Below are positions 14,096 to 21,992 of a stretch of 21,992 nt of DNA, piece by piece (the stretch's first letter is position 1; every line of letters begins with the position of its first letter). Below the pieces are notes generated by a model. It ran no database searches, was not told the DNA's origin, and worked only from the letters and a program-made list of their open reading frames with translations. Made by a program: the position numbers and the translations under genes. The stretch is from a virus. The stretch lies in the IMG/VR virus record IMGVR_UViG_3300027749_004509, positions 1-21,992 of that record; one strand, given 5' to 3'.

Positions 14096-16036
14096 TTACG
14101 CATATATTTTAGGTGGTGTTACGTCATCTTTTGATAAAACTTTAGCGACTAAATCTCCTGTGCCCCAAGTTTTTAGTGATTCACATTTACTTAATTTGTC
14201 TGAACCAATATCATTTTTTAACCCATTAGTTATACATGTATAATACGGTAACAATAATGTTTTAACGGTTGCCTCAATACCATAATTAGGCGTCGAATAA
14301 TTTTTAACCCCTACTTTATTGTAATCTGACATTCCTGAATCTTTACTTAACTTAAATGTTGTATTAAATGGGTTGTTTGTCGCTTTACCTCCTTCTCCCT
14401 TTCTCCAAGCATAAAAGAATTTTAAATTTTCCTCAGTAATTGGTGCTCCAACTCCCGTTAAAATTGCGGTGTAAAAATCCTTATCGTTACCAACATTAAT
14501 TTTGTCAAAATCTGAGGTAGTTTGAATTTTACTTAAATCGGTATCTTTAAATCCTTTTTCGGTCAATAACTCAAACAATTTTGTTAAGTCTTCTTCAGAT
14601 AATTTACCATCGGAAGTCACACCATTATCGGATTCGAATGACCTAACCGCCATTTCAGTTTCAGGCCCAAATAAACCATCAACACCCCATTTAGGCAGTG
14701 AATAACCTAAAAACTGTAATGCGGTTTGTATCTTTTCAACATCCTTATCATAAGGGATTTTTGAGTTTGGTTTTTTTAAGTTCACAAATTCTTTTCCTGA
14801 TTTTGAGATTGTGTCTAAATCCGATAAAAATGTTTCCCCTGTTTCTTTTGATGGTGTTTGAGCACTCTCTTTTGAACCTGTAAATATTTGGTCAGAATTG
14901 ACTAAAAGTTCTTTTAAGTGGTGTCCCCTGGGTAACCCTATATGTACGTGAGTAATATCTGGATGGTCTAACCATTCCGAAATTGCCCCAATATAGTCAC
15001 CAACTTTAACAACGTCCCCTTTTTGTAATTTAACATCTTTTAAATGTGTGTAAAAAATGTCAGGAAATTCCCCTGACCCTTTGATTGATACTTGAGTACC
15101 AAATATTTTACCTGAGTTTTTACCCGTATCTCTAATTTCACGAACAACTCCTTCAGTGTAAGAATTTACGACCGTTCCTGGAGGTGAAAATATATCCCAA
15201 GCATTATCGGACTCCCAATTACCAAGAGCTCTTCCACCATGGTTTTTTGGACCATTTTCTAAGTCAGTTTTAAAAGTTCCTCCAATATTTGTTGTGGATT
15301 CCTTAATTGATAATTTTTTATCGGTATATTCATTTTCAAAATCAAATAATTTTTGGATATACCCGTTTCTTCTTAAAACTTTAAATACCAAATTTTCATC
15401 TGAATATTCACCATCTTTTTCCAATCCGCAAGTTCTATACTTCTTAATTTTATCTTTATATTTTTGGATTAATTTTTTAGCATCGTCAAGAGGTTCATCT
15501 TGAGCGTTTTCAATCGCCCCATCAATAATCTCCATCCATTTGGTTGCCTTATTCTTAATTAAGTTAGTGTCAACCTCAACATTTTCTTTTTTAGGTTTAT
15601 TTGTCCATTCGTCATGTAATACAGAATAGACCCCACTACTAAAATGTGCTTCAGACTCGTTTTGTACATATAACTCCACCTCATAACCGTATATCGTTAT
15701 GTTATGGTTATCATTATACATTGTTTTTTTTAGGGTGAATAACTCAGTGTATAACGGTAATTGTGATTCTGAAAATTGGTTGAAGTCTGCTAAGATATGT
15801 AAATCAATGTCTGAAAAGGTTGACCAATTATAGTTTGCCAAAGACCCTGTCATAATTATATCTGACACAACAACATCGACTTTAAGGAATTCTATAAATT
15901 CGTAGGCAATATCAAGAAGACGACCCCTAACTGTAGGGTTCATCGTTTTTTCGTCATTTCCTGACGATTTCCAAATCTTTGGATTTAATTCATCCTTTAA
16001 ATGAAAACTGTTTAAAATGTTTTTTAGGTTACTCAT
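14096..16036 (-). CDS. Nucleotidyltransferase-like domain fused to M23, peptidoglycan-binding and lysozyme-like domains, 646 aa
   Basis: ATG 16036 (MSNLKNILNS) is chosen over an adjacent TTG at 16039. Domain 1 (about 15-240) carries the nucleotidyltransferase signature TGSLANYNWSTFSDIDLHIL (63-82), with Asp76 and Asp78. Domain 2 (265-375) is M23-like: NAWDIFSPPGTVV (Asp281), FYTHLKD (His331), LQKGDVVKVGDYIG and THVHIG (His363/His365). Domain 3 (430-490) is a peptidoglycan-binding repeat with KIQTALQFLGY and VDGLFGPETEMAVRSF. Domain 4 (515-635) is lysozyme-like: FYAWRKGEGGKATNNPFNTT (541-560), with Glu548 a candidate catalytic acid. It probably cuts or holds the cell wall during infection as part of the virion. 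There is no signal peptide or holin nearby, which argues against a plain lysis enzyme. The role of domain 1 is unknown. Confidence 0.85.
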   Translation of the reverse strand: MSNLKNILNSFHLKDELNPKIWKSSGNDEKTMNPTVRGRLLDIAYEFIEFLKVDVVVSDIIMTGSLANYNWSTFSDIDLHILADFNQFSESQLPLYTELFTLKKTMYNDNHNITIYGYEVELYVQNESEAHFSSGVYSVLHDEWTNKPKKENVEVDTNLIKNKATKWMEIIDGAIENAQDEPLDDAKKLIQKYKDKIKKYRTCGLEKDGEYSDENLVFKVLRRNGYIQKLFDFENEYTDKKLSIKESTTNIGGTFKTDLENGPKNHGGRALGNWESDNAWDIFSPPGTVVNSYTEGVVREIRDTGKNSGKIFGTQVSIKGSGEFPDIFYTHLKDVKLQKGDVVKVGDYIGAISEWLDHPDITHVHIGLPRGHHLKELLVNSDQIFTGSKESAQTPSKETGETFLSDLDTISKSGKEFVNLKKPNSKIPYDKDVEKIQTALQFLGYSLPKWGVDGLFGPETEMAVRSFESDNGVTSDGKLSEEDLTKLFELLTEKGFKDTDLSKIQTTSDFDKINVGNDKDFYTAILTGVGAPITEENLKFFYAWRKGEGGKATNNPFNTTFKLSKDSGMSDYNKVGVKNYSTPNYGIEATVKTLLLPYYTCITNGLKNDIGSDKLSKCESLKTWGTGDLVAKVLSKDDVTPPKIYA

Positions 16037-16040
16037 CAAA

Positions 16041-16676: not shown

Positions 16677-18716
16677 ATGATAGAATCAAAAGATAGTAGC
16701 GGACCTAATAAAGATAAAGGAAGTAGTGGTGATTCTGCCACACCTGTTTTAGACAACTTTAGTAGAGACCTAATTAAATTAGCCGAAGAAGGTAAATTAG
16801 ACCCTGTGATTGGACGAGAAAGAGAAATAACAAGAATTGCTCAAATCCTTTCAAGACGGAAAAAAAACAACCCAATCATTATTGGTGAGCCAGGTTGTGG
16901 TAAAACTGCAATTGTTGAAGGTTTGGCGATTAAAATTTTTAACGGAGACTGCCCAAGAAATTTAATGGACAAACGAATATTATCTTTAGATATGACCTCG
17001 ATAGTTGCTGGTACAAAATATCGTGGTCAATTTGAAGAACGTATGAAAGTAATTATTGAGGAATTACAAAACGCTCCAAGTATCATTATTTTTATTGATG
17101 AAATACACACCATTGTTGGTGCAGGTAATTCGTCAGGTTCAATGGACGCATCTAATATCTTTAAACCCGCTCTTGCTCGAGGAGAAATCCAATGTATTGG
17201 GGCAACGACTTTAGACGAGTATCGTAAGAATTTTGAAAAAGACGGAGCTTTAGAAAGACGATTCCAAAAGGTAATTGTTGATTCAGCAACAAAAGAAGAA
17301 ACGATTCAAATTCTACAACACAGTAAAGAGAGATACGAAAATTACCATAAAGTAAAATACTCTGACGAAATTTTATCACTATGTGTTGATTTGGCAGAAC
17401 GATATATCACAGATAGAGAATTCCCTGATAAAGCGTTTGACATTATTGATGAAGTCGGGGCAAGAAGTCAGGTTGAGGTGAAAATGCCCGAAATTATTGA
17501 AAGACTAAAAGAACAGGCTCATGATATTAAACAAGAAAAACTTGATGTCGTTAAAAAACAAAACTATGAAGAGGCGGCAAGTCTAAGAGATAAGGAACGA
17601 AGAATTTTAGATAAATTAGATTTGGAAAAGAAAAAATTCGAGTCTGAGTTACAAACTCAAAAGAAAGAAGTGACTGTTGAGTTGGTGTACGAAGTCGTTT
17701 CAAATATGACTAAGATTCCACTGTCTAAATTAAATGCTAATGAGACACAATTATTGGCCAAGTTAGACGAAAGGTTGGGTAGTAAAGTTATTGGTCAATC
17801 TGAAGCAGTATCAAGAATTGCAAAGTCTATTCGAAGAAATAGATTGGGTATTAAAGACCCTAACAAACCAATTGGTTCATTCATTTTCTTGGGGTCAACA
17901 GGTGTCGGTAAAACACATTTGGCGAAACAATTGGCTAAAGAAATGTTTGGTAGCGAAGAAAATTTGATTAGAATGGATATGTCAGAATTCCAAGAAAAGC
18001 ATACCATATCTCGTTTAATCGGAGCACCTCCAGGATATGTTGGTTATGATGAAGGCGGACAATTAACTGAACAGGTTAAAAATAAACCTTATTCTGTAAT
18101 CTTATTTGATGAGATTGAGAAGGCAAATAAAGACATTTTCTCAACGTTGTTACAAGTGTTGGATGATGGTCATATTACTGACGGATTAGGTAGAAAAATT
18201 AATTTCAAAAATTGTGTAATCATTATGACTTCAAATATTGGGGTTAAAAAACTAGAAGACTTTGGGACAGGTGTTGGATTTAAATCTTCAACAAATACTT
18301 ATGTCGAGGAAGAATATAAACGAGACATGTTGAAAAAGGAACTTAAAAAATTCTTCGCACCTGAATTCTTAAACAGAATTGATGAGGTCGTTATCTTCAA
18401 CACACTAAAACGAGATGAGGTTAAACAAATCGTTAAATTAGAAATGGACAAACTTTGTGAAAGATTAGTTAAGTTAAAATATAACATAACTTACGATGAA
18501 TCCGTATTGGAGTTAATTTCAGAAGTTGGTTTTGATGAGACCTATGGTGCAAGACCACTGAAGAGAGCAATCCAAGACAAAGTCGAGGATTTTATTTCCG
18601 AAGAAGTTTTAAAGGGAACTGTTCTTGAGGATGTTAGTTATGTTCTATATGTCGACAATACCGATGTTAAACTAAAGACAGTTAAAAAGACTAAAAAGAA
18701 AAAAGGGGAAAATTAA
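16677..18716 (+). CDS. ClpA/ClpC-type AAA+ unfoldase without N-domain
   Basis: The 679-residue protein has two AAA+ modules. In the first, Walker A is GEPGCGKT (70-77), the pore loop GTKYRG (112-117), Walker B IIIFIDE (136-142) and the Arg-finger region ALERRF (191-196). A UVR-like coiled coil follows (NYEEAASLRDKERRI, 296-310). In the second, Walker A is GSTGVGKT (406-413), the pore loop GYVGYDEG (453-460), Walker B VILFDE (474-479), then FLNRIDE (564-570) and sensor-2 GARPLKR (624-630). VGF at 533-535 lies where ClpC and ClpA carry the loop that docks to ClpP. The family's N-terminal adaptor-binding repeats are absent, replaced by about 25 Ser/Gly/Lys residues; typical ClpC is about 800 residues. 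No clpP gene is present here, so a host ClpP is the likely partner. It sits alone on the plus strand with its own promoter and terminator. Confidence 0.95.
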   Translation: MIESKDSSGPNKDKGSSGDSATPVLDNFSRDLIKLAEEGKLDPVIGREREITRIAQILSRRKKNNPIIIGEPGCGKTAIVEGLAIKIFNGDCPRNLMDKRILSLDMTSIVAGTKYRGQFEERMKVIIEELQNAPSIIIFIDEIHTIVGAGNSSGSMDASNIFKPALARGEIQCIGATTLDEYRKNFEKDGALERRFQKVIVDSATKEETIQILQHSKERYENYHKVKYSDEILSLCVDLAERYITDREFPDKAFDIIDEVGARSQVEVKMPEIIERLKEQAHDIKQEKLDVVKKQNYEEAASLRDKERRILDKLDLEKKKFESELQTQKKEVTVELVYEVVSNMTKIPLSKLNANETQLLAKLDERLGSKVIGQSEAVSRIAKSIRRNRLGIKDPNKPIGSFIFLGSTGVGKTHLAKQLAKEMFGSEENLIRMDMSEFQEKHTISRLIGAPPGYVGYDEGGQLTEQVKNKPYSVILFDEIEKANKDIFSTLLQVLDDGHITDGLGRKINFKNCVIIMTSNIGVKKLEDFGTGVGFKSSTNTYVEEEYKRDMLKKELKKFFAPEFLNRIDEVVIFNTLKRDEVKQIVKLEMDKLCERLVKLKYNITYDESVLELISEVGFDETYGARPLKRAIQDKVEDFISEEVLKGTVLEDVSYVLYVDNTDVKLKTVKKTKKKKGEN

Positions 18717-18730
18717 TTCCCCTTTTTTTT
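18699..18730. terminator. Bidirectional terminator between clp and the peptidase gene
   Basis: A 12-bp stem (AAAAAAGGGGAA against TTCCCCTTTTTT) closes a 6-base loop that holds the clp stop codon. A T-run follows on the plus strand and, by symmetry, on the minus strand. It serves both convergent genes, which are 12 bases apart. Confidence 0.9.
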
Positions 18731-19556
18731 AATCAAATAGTGTGTAACTATTTTTTGGTTTAGGTGTAAAGGAATGTTTTGTATATCCCAATTTCTCAAT
18801 CATTTTTTTACCTATTTCGATTCCACTGTAAACATCTTCGATAACAACATATTCGTTTGGTGTGTGGTAGTTGTAGTACCCGATAGCAAAATTGATACAC
18901 GAAAAATCAAAAAGTTGTTTTAACGCATATACGTCAGTATAAGGGTGAGATTGGTATTTTTGTCTTTTCTCAAATCCTTCAGTTAACACCTCATCACAAG
19001 ATGTGAAAAATTCTGTACCTCTGTCAAATAATTGAACCCCCATACAAAATTCGGAAACCATCCAATTGCCAGGTGCGTCAAATTGAATTGCGTACCCAAC
19101 ATTTGTGAAGAATGTTTTATCGGCCTTTCTTGACCCATGACAACCTGTTTCTTCGGATACAAAGAACGCCGCCTTTAAGTTAGGAAGTTCTTTCAATAAC
19201 TCTAAACAAGCATAGATACCACATTTGTCATCACCACCAATCCCTGTTGGGTTACCCTTGTCATTATACGCCTTTAAAGACGGTTTCATCTCATTCTGAG
19301 CGTTTGGTAGTAATCCCTCACGAATATTGATTGTGTCAATATTATGTACGGTATCGGTGTGAGCAACAACACATGGAAAATATTCGATATTTTCATCAGT
19401 TTGTTTTGTTGCGTAAATGTTAAACATTCCATCAACAAAAAACGGGATATTGTTTTCAGATAACCAATTGGTTATAAACTTAACCATTTGTTCTTCTTGG
19501 TACGTTTTGGATGGAACGGACAAAACACTCTTTAAAAGTTCGTAGTCTCTTTGCAT
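18729..19556 (-). CDS. M20/M28-like zinc peptidase (PepT-like), 275 aa
   Basis: The protein has the metal-site motifs of the dinuclear zinc exopeptidases: VVAHTDTV (His66, Asp68), GIGGDDKCG (Asp109/Asp110), FVSEETGCHGS (Glu135/Glu136), QFDAPG (Asp160) and YHTPNEYV (His231). The GGDDK, EETG and HTPNEY set is closest to PepT and other M20 di- or tripeptidases, or to related M28/M42 enzymes. At 275 residues it is shorter than typical M20 enzymes of about 400, probably lacking the lid or dimerisation domain. It would release residues from small peptides in the cytoplasm. The gene follows the 470-aa gene by 9 bases, so they are likely cotranscribed, and it shares a terminator with clp. Such peptidases are unusual in phages. 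Confidence 0.85.
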   Translation of the reverse strand: MQRDYELLKSVLSVPSKTYQEEQMVKFITNWLSENNIPFFVDGMFNIYATKQTDENIEYFPCVVAHTDTVHNIDTINIREGLLPNAQNEMKPSLKAYNDKGNPTGIGGDDKCGIYACLELLKELPNLKAAFFVSEETGCHGSRKADKTFFTNVGYAIQFDAPGNWMVSEFCMGVQLFDRGTEFFTSCDEVLTEGFEKRQKYQSHPYTDVYALKQLFDFSCINFAIGYYNYHTPNEYVVIEDVYSGIEIGKKMIEKLGYTKHSFTPKPKNSYTLFD

Positions 19557-19565
19557 AACACAAAG

Positions 19566-20978
19566 TTAAGCTTTTTTTCGGAAGTTCAAGATTTTATTTT
19601 CAAATAATTCAGGATTATGTAGAAAATTTCGGAATTCTTCAAGAGTATAACTCCTTACTTCGGATTGACTTCCTTGTTTTAATCCTGATTTATAGTAAGT
19701 TAAATATATTTTATTAGTTGTAGGGTCTAATTTTGTAACTCGAAATCCTTCGGTGTTAGTTCCTCTTTTTAAATCATAATATCTATTTAAATCATAATGT
19801 GATAAAACCTCATCAACCATTTTTCTAAATTTAATTAGATTTGGGTACTTATTACTATCCTCAATTTCTTCTAATATTTTTTCTAACTCATACTTTGCGT
19901 TTCTATTGACGGAATCGATATCAAATTCTCTACTACCATACTCGTATATATATTCCTCATATGGACCAACTGACATCGTATGTCCAATCTTTGATAACAT
20001 CCCTTTTAAGTCCACATGTCTTTCTTTCGAAATATTGTACATACCCAACAAGACATTAACGGTTGTTACATATGTGTAGAAACATCCTGACTTGGCAAAT
20101 AACCCGTAATTTTGGAATGGTTCACATAACTCTTCTCTTATTTCCTCTTCAGCGGCTTTTTGCATTCCCGAATCCTTTTCATGTGAGTAATCATCAATAA
20201 TATTCTCAGTTTGTCTACTAAAAGTGTCTCTCAATAGTACTGAGGCCTCCTTATATTGGTCATCATCATTAAGTTCGGCAAGATTGGGTTTAATATAAAT
20301 TAAAATTTGTTTAATTATCGCAATGTTTTCCTCATTAAGGTCCCTCATTAAATAACCCTCATCCCAATCCTGATATCCCATATCACTATGGTAGAAACCA
20401 ATAGAGTCGTAATGATATGAACTAAATAATGCCTTTAAAAACCATAAATCCCCTTCACCTAAATCAAATAATTTAAAATAATCTTCATGGTCATCAAATT
20501 TAAGTGTGACCATACTTTTACCAGGGTTGTTCTTGTTAAATTTGAACCCCCTAATTAAATCATCAATATTGGCTAATTTATACTCATCAATATCTTCCCC
20601 ACCACTAATTCTCTTTAATATGTTATAGGTACTACTAACACCAATCAAGTCGTAAATTTTGTCAGTAATTTCAGGGAATTTCTCAAGAATATCCGTCATT
20701 GTTAAATCATCGTTATTATAATTAAAAAATTCTATTAGTCCTCGATGTGGTTTGTGAATTAAATATGATAATGTTGGGGTAAGATAATCACCTTCTTTAT
20801 CGACAATAATATAATTGTCTGCATCACGATATCTATTATAATATTTAGAAAAAAATGGAGGACCAAAGTATTTTGCAGACTCCAAAGTGTTACATTTCAA
20901 TAACATAACCTTATCATCTTGATAGAAGATTTGACTACCGTCATAAGCTTCGTTTTTGTTTTCCTCTGTCTCTGCCAT
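19566..20978 (-). CDS. Uncharacterised protein, 470 aa
   Basis: I place the start at ATG 20978 (MAETEENKNEAYDGSQIFYQ). A TTG at 21044 would add 22 residues but would run through the tmRNA promoter and lose the late-type motif spacing. The protein is 470 residues, acidic and Tyr/Asp-rich. The N-terminal part, KVMLLKCNTLESAKYFGPPF and then YIIVDKEGDYL, weakly resembles a domain often found in phage proteins in which a Trp-Cys pair follows the YFG region; that pair is missing here. The rest is helical with no motif I recognise. The gene is cotranscribed with the peptidase gene 9 bases downstream and diverges from the tmRNA. Its function is unknown. Confidence 0.72.
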   Translation of the reverse strand: MAETEENKNEAYDGSQIFYQDDKVMLLKCNTLESAKYFGPPFFSKYYNRYRDADNYIIVDKEGDYLTPTLSYLIHKPHRGLIEFFNYNNDDLTMTDILEKFPEITDKIYDLIGVSSTYNILKRISGGEDIDEYKLANIDDLIRGFKFNKNNPGKSMVTLKFDDHEDYFKLFDLGEGDLWFLKALFSSYHYDSIGFYHSDMGYQDWDEGYLMRDLNEENIAIIKQILIYIKPNLAELNDDDQYKEASVLLRDTFSRQTENIIDDYSHEKDSGMQKAAEEEIREELCEPFQNYGLFAKSGCFYTYVTTVNVLLGMYNISKERHVDLKGMLSKIGHTMSVGPYEEYIYEYGSREFDIDSVNRNAKYELEKILEEIEDSNKYPNLIKFRKMVDEVLSHYDLNRYYDLKRGTNTEGFRVTKLDPTTNKIYLTYYKSGLKQGSQSEVRSYTLEEFRNFLHNPELFENKILNFRKKA

Positions 20979-20988
20979 ATTTATATCA

Positions 20989-21006: not shown

Positions 21007-21036
21007 TTGTTATTGTCGGATTTATTCGTATATTTG
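21007..21036 (+). promoter_or_regulatory. Host-type promoter of the tmRNA gene
   Basis: TTG at 21007-21009 and TATATTTG at 21029-21036 are separated by 19 bases, a full match to the Bacteroidota -33/-7 layout. The -7 element ends 25 bases before the tmRNA 5' end, leaving a short leader for RNase P to remove. Confidence 0.7.
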
Positions 21037-21061
21037 TAAAACAATAGTTCTTTAACATTAT

Positions 21062-21475
21062 GGGGGTAAATTGGAATTGACTGACATAGTTGGTTATTCG
21101 GGGCATGTCAAGGCTGAGCTAACCTTGTAAAACTGGTTCAAATCGATACACGGCAACGTTATCAACAAACTTTCTGCAGTAGGATTAATCCGTACTGAGG
21201 AAAGTGTTTCAGTAGCCTAAGGCGAAAAAAACAACGGGTGGATAGACTTATACCTAGGAACAGAACGGTCTTCATGGTGTGACATCTACCATAAAAGGTG
21301 TAAACTCTAACCAATCAGAGGATAATCAGATGGTAGAGGGTAAGTTCTCAGTAAACCGAACTGTATAATAAGGGAACTGTGGGATTTCGGATTGTTAGAT
21401 TAAACAATGACCTAAACATGTAGTCCTTAATAATCGTTATGAACAACTACGAGGGTTCGAGTCCCTCTATCTCCT
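21062..21475 (+). ncRNA. ssrA: Transfer-messenger RNA (tmRNA)
   Basis: The 5' end GGGGGTA pairs with TATCTCC at 21468-21474, with G-U pairs, to form the acceptor stem. GAGGG-TTCGAGT-CCCTC at 21451-21467 is the T arm. GACCTAAACATGTAGT before it matches the conserved GACUAAGCAUGUAGU block of bacterial tmRNA. Upstream, GCATGTCAAGG and CCTTGTAAAACTGGTTC match the first pseudoknot region. The tag frame most likely starts at GGC 21152, preceded by TACAC where bacterial tmRNAs have UAGUC. It encodes GNVINKLSAVGLIRTEESVS-VA and stops at TAA 21218-21220. CCA is not encoded. tmRNA with SmpB rescues stalled ribosomes and marks the product for proteolysis. Its 414 bases make it somewhat long for the family. 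Confidence 0.93.
21152..21220 (+). other. tmRNA tag reading frame, 22 codons plus stop (proposed)
   Basis: GGC as resume codon fits Bacteroidota tmRNAs, whose tags begin with Gly. The -5 to -1 bases TACAC agree with the conserved U-A-x-x-C. The 22-residue peptide ends VSVA rather than the usual ALAA. The alternative frame from GCA 21153 gives only ATLSTNFLQ before TAG and has a worse context. Confidence 0.6.
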
Positions 21476-21485
21476 CATTTAACAT

Positions 21486-21533
21486 TTTTGTTCTTTTACT
21501 ATATTTTGAAATATTTATAGTAAAAGAACAAAA
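21486..21533 (+). promoter_or_regulatory. Perfect 18-bp inverted repeat over the homing endonuclease start
   Basis: The left arm, 21486-21503 (TTTTGTTCTTTTACTATA), is an exact complement of the right arm, 21516-21533, with a 12-base loop. The right arm includes the A of the start codon. No T-run follows, so it does not look like a normal terminator for the tmRNA, although it may mark the 3' end of that transcript. Confidence 0.8.
21512..21519 (+). promoter_or_regulatory. TATTTATA late-type motif before the homing endonuclease gene
   Basis: TATTTATA lies exactly 13 bases before ATG 21533, in the loop and first bases of the right arm of the inverted repeat. It is the plus-strand example of the motif seen before the minus-strand virion genes. 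Confidence 0.6.
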
Positions 21534-21992
21534 TGCCAAGAAAAAAACCTAATTTCCACTATATCTATAAAACCATTTGTAATTTTAATCAAAAATACTA
21601 TATCGGAATGCACAGCACATCTAATTTAGAGGATGGGTATATGGGTAGTGGTAAAAGATTAAGATATTCAATAAGAAAGTATGGTAAGGATAACCACACT
21701 AAAATTATTATAGAGTTTTTACCTAACAGAGAATCATTAAAAGAACGTGAAATTGAAATTGTTAATTCGGATTTATTATTAGATGAAAATTGTATAAATC
21801 TTAAAACAGGTGGTTATGGTGGAGGGAAATTTTATTCTGAAGAACATAAATTAAAATGTTCTAAATCCGGTAATGAAATGTTTTTAAAAAAAATGCAAGA
21901 TGAGGAGTATCGGAAAGAGTTTTCGAAAAAATTAAGTAATGCTTATAAAAAACAAGTTCTTGAAGGTAAACGAGAAAAAAAATATTTTTACG
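21533..21992 (+). CDS. GIY-YIG homing endonuclease, 3' end outside window
   Basis: The frame opens at ATG 21533 (MPRKKPNFHYIYKTICNFNQ) and is still open at the window end, 153 residues in. The catalytic module shows YIYK, then KYYIGMHSTSNLEDGYMGSG, LRYSIRKYGKDNH, KEREIEIVNSD with the conserved Glu, and NLKTGGYGGG. The segment after it, FYSEEHKLKCSKSGNEMF and then YRKEFSKKLSNAYKKQ, resembles the short NUMOD3-type DNA-binding repeats of phage homing enzymes. Such enzymes cut a target site and copy their own gene into it. It is free-standing, 58 bases after the tmRNA. Its start codon lies at the edge of a perfect inverted repeat, pointing to tight translational control. Confidence 0.9.
   Translation, partial: MPRKKPNFHYIYKTICNFNQKYYIGMHSTSNLEDGYMGSGKRLRYSIRKYGKDNHTKIIIEFLPNRESLKEREIEIVNSDLLLDENCINLKTGGYGGGKFYSEEHKLKCSKSGNEMFLKKMQDEEYRKEFSKKLSNAYKKQVLEGKREKKYFY

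Follow-up and report, generated by a model that had tools for sequence, protein, structure and literature searches.

A SegB-type homing endonuclease gene apparently inserted behind a phage tmRNA, with a leader that resembles the hairpin and late-promoter switch of T4

In phage T4, segB lies between the genes for tRNA-Ile and tRNA-Arg, and a hairpin combined with a predicted late promoter has been described for this gene, as well as beside I-TevI, mobE and others (PMC2988022), such control being called 'implicated' for segB in a second paper (PMC3014915). The T4 segB leader, GAACATAAATACTC.../...GAGATATTTATGTTC, pairs across the ATG and has a CATAAATA motif in its 5' arm (z -6.0), and the start region is predicted to be only 9% open in the long RNA. 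In I-TevI, I-TevII and I-TevIII of the T4 introns and in Aeh1 mobE, as would be the case at the locus described here, the start is hidden in a hairpin of the read-through RNA, and a middle or late promoter in or near this hairpin gives an RNA devoid of the 5' arm (PMC2988022). However, those genes are intron-borne or of the HNH type, whereas the gene studied here is a free-standing GIY-YIG gene behind a structural RNA gene. The same logic of hairpin-silenced early RNA and embedded late promoters is found in T4 genes e and soc (PMC3014915, PMC2988022), which are functional phage genes and not mobile elements. According to a recent report, SegB homologues co-locate with tRNA genes in phages of several phyla, Bacteroidota included, and SegB of T6 cuts inside tRNA genes at RAWTSGAAC (PMC13096335, 2026). 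We read the complement of this site as the tRNA T loop, which would explain an insertion behind any tRNA-like 3' end. The word 'hairpin' is absent from the main text of that report, and tmRNA is not mentioned in its available part.

The DNA analysed, hereafter called the window, is the whole stretch of 21,992 nucleotides, a 22-kb fragment of a T4-like phage carrying a portal gene (gp20), a prohead protease gene (gp21) and a T4-type terminase gene. The named relatives of its portal protein, Flavobacterium phages among them, are at most ~41% identical to it, and a blastn search of the region against named phages returned no match. The tmRNA gene was recognised by its Rfam profile but was not called by ARAGORN in the window; tmRNA homologues are present in dozens of related contigs. 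Upstream, the TAnnTTTG element of the Bacteroidota-type promoter is conserved, with small shifts, across nearly all listed relatives. The features of the locus are collected in Table 1.

Table 1. Features at the tmRNA-endonuclease junction (positions in the window)
Feature	Position	Strand	Remarks
Bacteroidota (host-type) tmRNA promoter, TTG-N19-TATATTTG	21014-21040 (approximate)	+	TAnnTTTG near -33 relative to the 5' end of the tmRNA
tmRNA gene	21062-21478	+	Rfam RF00023, 76.6 bits, E 2e-28; insertion host of the endonuclease gene
Hairpin 5' arm, TTTTGTTCTTTTACTATA	21486-21503	+	Missing from an RNA begun at the internal late motif
Late-promoter-like motif, TATTTATA	21512-21519	+	Lies partly in the loop and partly in the 3' arm (first 4 nt); spaced 13 nt from the ATG that follows
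Hairpin 3' arm, TATAGTAAAAGAACAAAA	21516-21533	+	Its last base, 21533, is also the first base of the endonuclease ATG
Putative late transcription start	21523-21527	+	About 4-7 nt past the motif, from motif spacing and relatives' genes
SegB-type GIY-YIG homing endonuclease gene	21533-21992	+	Incomplete; the record ends within it

The endonuclease, whose closest full copy (L003) has 226 amino acids, matches the profile phrog_314 with an E value of 3.5e-32, while its match to the Pfam GIY-YIG family (E 4.9e-4, 20.8 bits) falls just under the cut-off of 22.6. Six T4 proteins matched it, the best being SegB (39% identity, E 5e-31). Its initiator methionine is invariant in alignment A1. Both the homology, with its GIY-YIG domain, and the location at a tRNA-type gene are those of the SegB-like class.

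Because the window endonuclease gene runs off the record end, its insertion was deduced from relatives (L003 and others, in which the homing endonuclease gene, or HEG, is up to 100% identical over the overlap). In the closest relative that has no HEG (L086), as in many others, a GC-rich stem with a T tract follows the tmRNA within about 20 nt. In the relatives that carry the HEG behind a tmRNA, the same terminator is found a few bases after the HEG stop codon. The HEG and its leader therefore entered between the tmRNA and its terminator, and a transcript begun at the tmRNA promoter cannot avoid crossing the endonuclease gene, with no terminator between the two, as in the T4-type controlled genes. 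Judged by these junctions, the AT-rich hairpin is part of the HEG cassette and not of the tmRNA.

The two arms of the hairpin are complementary at 18/18 positions and are separated by a loop of 12 nt. When the whole window was shuffled 200 times with dinucleotides preserved, and loops of up to 60 were allowed, the longest perfect inverted repeat per shuffle averaged 10.8, with a maximum of 14 and none of 18 or more; a chance origin is excluded. As RNA, the 48-mer folds with -18.9 kcal/mol (z -7.6), and with flanks the energy is -19.8 kcal/mol (z -6.2), in which case one bulge lengthens the stem (CAUUUUUG/CAAAAUG) and the start codon itself is predicted to pair. In such folds the start already opens once the 5' end of the RNA passes ~21495.

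The 8-mer TATTTATA is the most enriched one upstream of the ORFs of the window, with 6 occurrences seen in the -30 to -16 region and 0.07 expected. It lies on the coding strand before genes of the head and packaging block, 13-14 nt before their ATGs, the distance being 13 nt at four places (the endonuclease included) and 14 nt at one. In nine related records, 75 matches to TATTTATA-N11-15-ATG were counted against 18 for the reversed pattern, frequently in the form TATTTATAnTAAAA, and in some related genes only 3-4 nt separate the motif from the ATG. The set of genes downstream suggests that the motif is a late one, and we put it forward as the motif of late promoters in this group of T4-like phages, which probably infect Bacteroidota. 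TATTTATA is also the reverse complement of TATAAATA, but an antisense T4-type promoter was rejected because TATTTATA on the coding strand precedes late genes in the window and TATAAATA never does, none having been found between -30 and -16 of the window ORFs. A second TATTTATA is present at 20978-20985 (+), about 80 nt upstream of the tmRNA and aimed at it, where it overlaps the start of a convergent gene; it could drive late read-through of the tmRNA or be due to chance. In another contig (G002, that of L021), the motif that ranks first upstream of ORFs is the host-type TATCTTTG, with TATTTATA beside it, and thus both promoter classes can be read within one phage.

The sequence-only reading had proposed that a perfect inverted repeat of 18 bp closes with the first base of the endonuclease start codon, that this start is hidden in RNA reading through from the tmRNA promoter, and that a late-type motif lies inside the hairpin. 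The repeat was confirmed by its coordinates and by the shuffles, and the motif has the spacing found at head and packaging genes. The hiding of the start agrees with the predicted fold and with the position of the terminator behind the endonuclease gene; of the two transcript forms, the long one was predicted to be closed and the short one open, as had been anticipated.

Taken together, these data suggest that a SegB-type free-standing HEG has been inserted at the tmRNA 3' end, before the tmRNA terminator, and that it brought its own timing leader. RNA from the host-type tmRNA promoter would read on, hold both arms, fold and hide the start, so that no enzyme would be made. Late in infection, a polymerase with phage late specificity would start at TATTTATA within the hairpin, and the resulting RNA, beginning ~8 nt before the ATG and lacking the 5' arm, would be translated. 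The benefit would be that less nuclease is made during the early, tmRNA-driven phase. We give this reading as a whole, insertion and timing switch together, a probability of roughly 0.8, and the hairpin/late-promoter switch in itself is strongly supported at the sequence level: the insertion, the lack of an intervening terminator, the motif and its position, the predicted fold and the co-variation of the arms described below all point to it. From these we infer the transcription start, its lateness, the translational silencing and the benefit. As in the T4-type class, the hairpin is predicted to cover the translation start in the read-through RNA, and the motif is so placed that an RNA started from it would lose the 5' arm.

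Relatives of the endonuclease were searched in viral contigs, and the best 80 of 102 matches to the window enzyme and the best 80 of 589 matches to an alignment were retained. They yielded 66 distinct leaders, which are not phylogenetically independent. All but one (L076) sit directly behind a tmRNA or a tRNA of one of many isotypes, the tRNA-type neighbour being recognised by its T-arm sequence where ARAGORN calls no gene; at least six besides that of the window are behind tmRNAs. The ATG is usually found 33-59 nt past the end of the tRNA or tmRNA. Compared with shuffles, the read-through RNA of these leaders folds with a median z of -5.1 (below -2 in 61/66 and below -3 in 54/66), and at least two of the three start-codon bases are paired in 55 of the 66. 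The exception that is not directly behind a tRNA, L076, has a z of +0.3. Weak or no start hairpins were found with the same pipeline in the distant SegB relatives L073, L077-L079, L081 and L162, and L082 has a z of -3.7. Averaged over the region from -8 to +3, the predicted openness has a median of 0.17 for the long RNA and of 0.78 for a short RNA starting 5 nt past the motif (p 3.5e-12, 66 leaders), although its shortness is bound to make the latter look more open.

Two or three designs can be distinguished among these leaders. In the first, that of the window, the motif lies in the loop and the 3' arm; in the second (e.g. L040, L197, L206), it belongs to the 5' arm and has the start codon and codons 2-3 as its pairing partners; and in the third (e.g. 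L017, L051), a mere 3-4 nt lie between motif and ATG, which would suit an RNA with almost no leader. In place of this motif, some members have in the loop TATAAATA, exact or nearly so (L026, L261), or GATATATA (L048, L057, L060).

The location of the hairpin directly behind the tRNA or tmRNA end in all related leaders but one would also fit an RNA-processing signal, such as a site of entry for RNase III or RNase E, whose main role would be to free the tmRNA or tRNA 3' end while destroying the endonuclease start. A long AU-rich duplex could be cut in this way, and the T4 segB mRNA has been reported to be processed by RNase E (PMC2988022). However, processing explains neither why the stem centres on the start codon and matches synonymous changes in codons 2-3, nor why a late motif lies within it at the spacing of late genes, and no such structure follows the tmRNA in the closest relative that lacks the HEG. 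We consider it unlikely that processing is the main role, but it can coexist with that of a switch.

That the pairing itself is maintained is indicated by a swap test, in which the 5' arms were re-paired with the 3' arms of other leaders. Duplexes of own arms, taken to position +3, had an average of -9.9 kcal/mol compared to -4.2 +/- 0.3 kcal/mol for permuted partners, and the best of 20,000 permutations reached -5.3 kcal/mol. With the codons included, the values were -17.8 kcal/mol for own arms and -8.5 +/- 0.4 kcal/mol for random re-pairing, the best permutation again falling far short. At the codon level, the Ala2 codons GCA, GCC, GCU and GCG face T, G, A and C (or T), respectively, in the 5' arm, and the Arg3 codons AGA and AGG face mostly T and C, but these partners were taken from each sequence's own fold and therefore lean towards pairing, a bias that the swap test alone avoids. 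The matching of synonymous Ala2 and Arg3 changes by the 5' arm may thus be taken as support rather than proof. In the close clade of the window, pairing is kept in 98% of the cells; the changes comprise a single compensatory pair (L074), three cases of G-U and two broken cells. The pair score was reached by 91/500 shuffles, the arms being nearly invariant and offering too little variation for a test. Leaders of the second type, aligned with MAFFT, gave no RNAalifold consensus because the stem registers slip between sequences, and the swap test was used instead. The sequence-only reading was to be given up if the arms of relatives drifted without compensation; by the swap test, they co-vary. 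In L074 (2501-2680), the endonuclease is shortened to 59 amino acids and its leader hairpin is kept, with a compensatory change from U-A to C-G.

Arms that are perfect while their sequences turn over rapidly between relatives could also be produced by template switching or quasi-palindrome correction during mutation, with no selection on structure. We regard this as very improbable, since the structure is confined to endonuclease leaders, no hairpin being found in 21 other genes of these AT-rich phages that have the motif at the same distance (0/21 with z < -3), and since its position relative to the ATG is fixed in several architectures.

Equally improbable is that the dyad serves mainly as a DNA operator for the endonuclease or another regulator, with the RNA pairing being secondary. 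I-TevI does repress its own late promoter through an overlapping operator (PMC2988022), and autorepression of this kind has been shown for I-TevI only; furthermore, a conserved CTTTTTTGTAC element precedes the hairpin in most relatives. However, unlike a conserved binding site, the arms vary widely among relatives with their complementarity kept. Between the tRNA or tmRNA end and the hairpin, nearly all relatives (e.g. L036, L044) have a conserved element of approximately CTTTTTTGTACYTT, of which positions 21483-21493 of the window are a diverged form. Its pairing partner is often formed by codons 2-5 of the endonuclease gene, which are rich in A, and its conservation may mean that it is a DNA-binding site as well. 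Finally, that the inverted repeat, 8 nt behind the tmRNA, is the tmRNA terminator was rejected as highly improbable, as its stem is AT-rich rather than GC-rich, no T tract follows it on either strand, and the real terminator, with both features, comes after the stop codon of the HEG, or directly after the tmRNA in relatives that lack the HEG.

The hairpin/late-promoter switch is thus best compared with that of T4 segB. Both loci have a homologous enzyme, a position directly behind a tRNA-type gene, a stem over the start codon and a late-type motif in the hairpin. They differ in the site, which is a tRNA in T4 and a tmRNA here, in the motif, which is TATAAATA-like and in the 5' arm in T4 and is TATTTATA in the loop and 3' arm here, and in the sequences of the arms, which are not the same; the T4 stem contains a Shine-Dalgarno-like AGGAG, of which no counterpart can be seen at the present locus. 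Of the earlier interpretation, the switch itself is well supported, in view of the spacing, the terminator, the folds and the co-variation, whereas the independent use of a timing device that had been suggested is not supported, as the closest T4 homologue, itself behind a tRNA, has such a hairpin and late motif. By its sequence, the element is of the SegB type with a T4-type switch. For segB, the arrangement had been published before. What is added here is a tmRNA as the insertion site, a late motif that differs from that of T4, and the breadth of the device together with the lineage-specific matching of its arms.

It seems probable, albeit less so than the reading of the window itself, that a large environmental family of SegB-type endonucleases behind tRNA and tmRNA genes carries a built-in RNA timer that evolves anew, the hairpin being rebuilt in each lineage to fit its own start and codons and to hold the late motif of the phage (TATTTATA, TATAAATA or GATATATA). 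If so, a self-contained cassette would enable the element to parasitise tRNA-like operons of any kind without being expressed early. What was a curiosity of T4 (segB, I-TevI) takes on the look of a rule for the family, replicated dozens of times in nature, tmRNA hosts included, and with comparative evidence for selection on the hairpin itself, and the question of why selfish nucleases must be late is made directly testable.

The host gene of the insertion has features of its own. Its tag frame, from about 21151, is unusually long and conserved, (G)NVINKLSAVGLIRTEESVSVA*, and the consensus across 25 distinct related phage tmRNAs is roughly (G)NVL[DN]KMA-x-[IV]GLIRE[DE]AAVVA*, unlike usual tmRNA tags, which end in ...YALAA. 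Near the tmRNA, 16677-18716 (+) encodes a Clp-type AAA+ ATPase and 18729-19556 (-) an M20-type peptidase, and the M20 gene and the tmRNA remain neighbours in dozens of related contigs; a link between the tag and a protease is possible. Further upstream, an ORF at 14096-16039 (-) is a seeming fusion of a phage domain of unknown function (phrog_36119) with metallo-endopeptidase-like and endolysin-like stretches.
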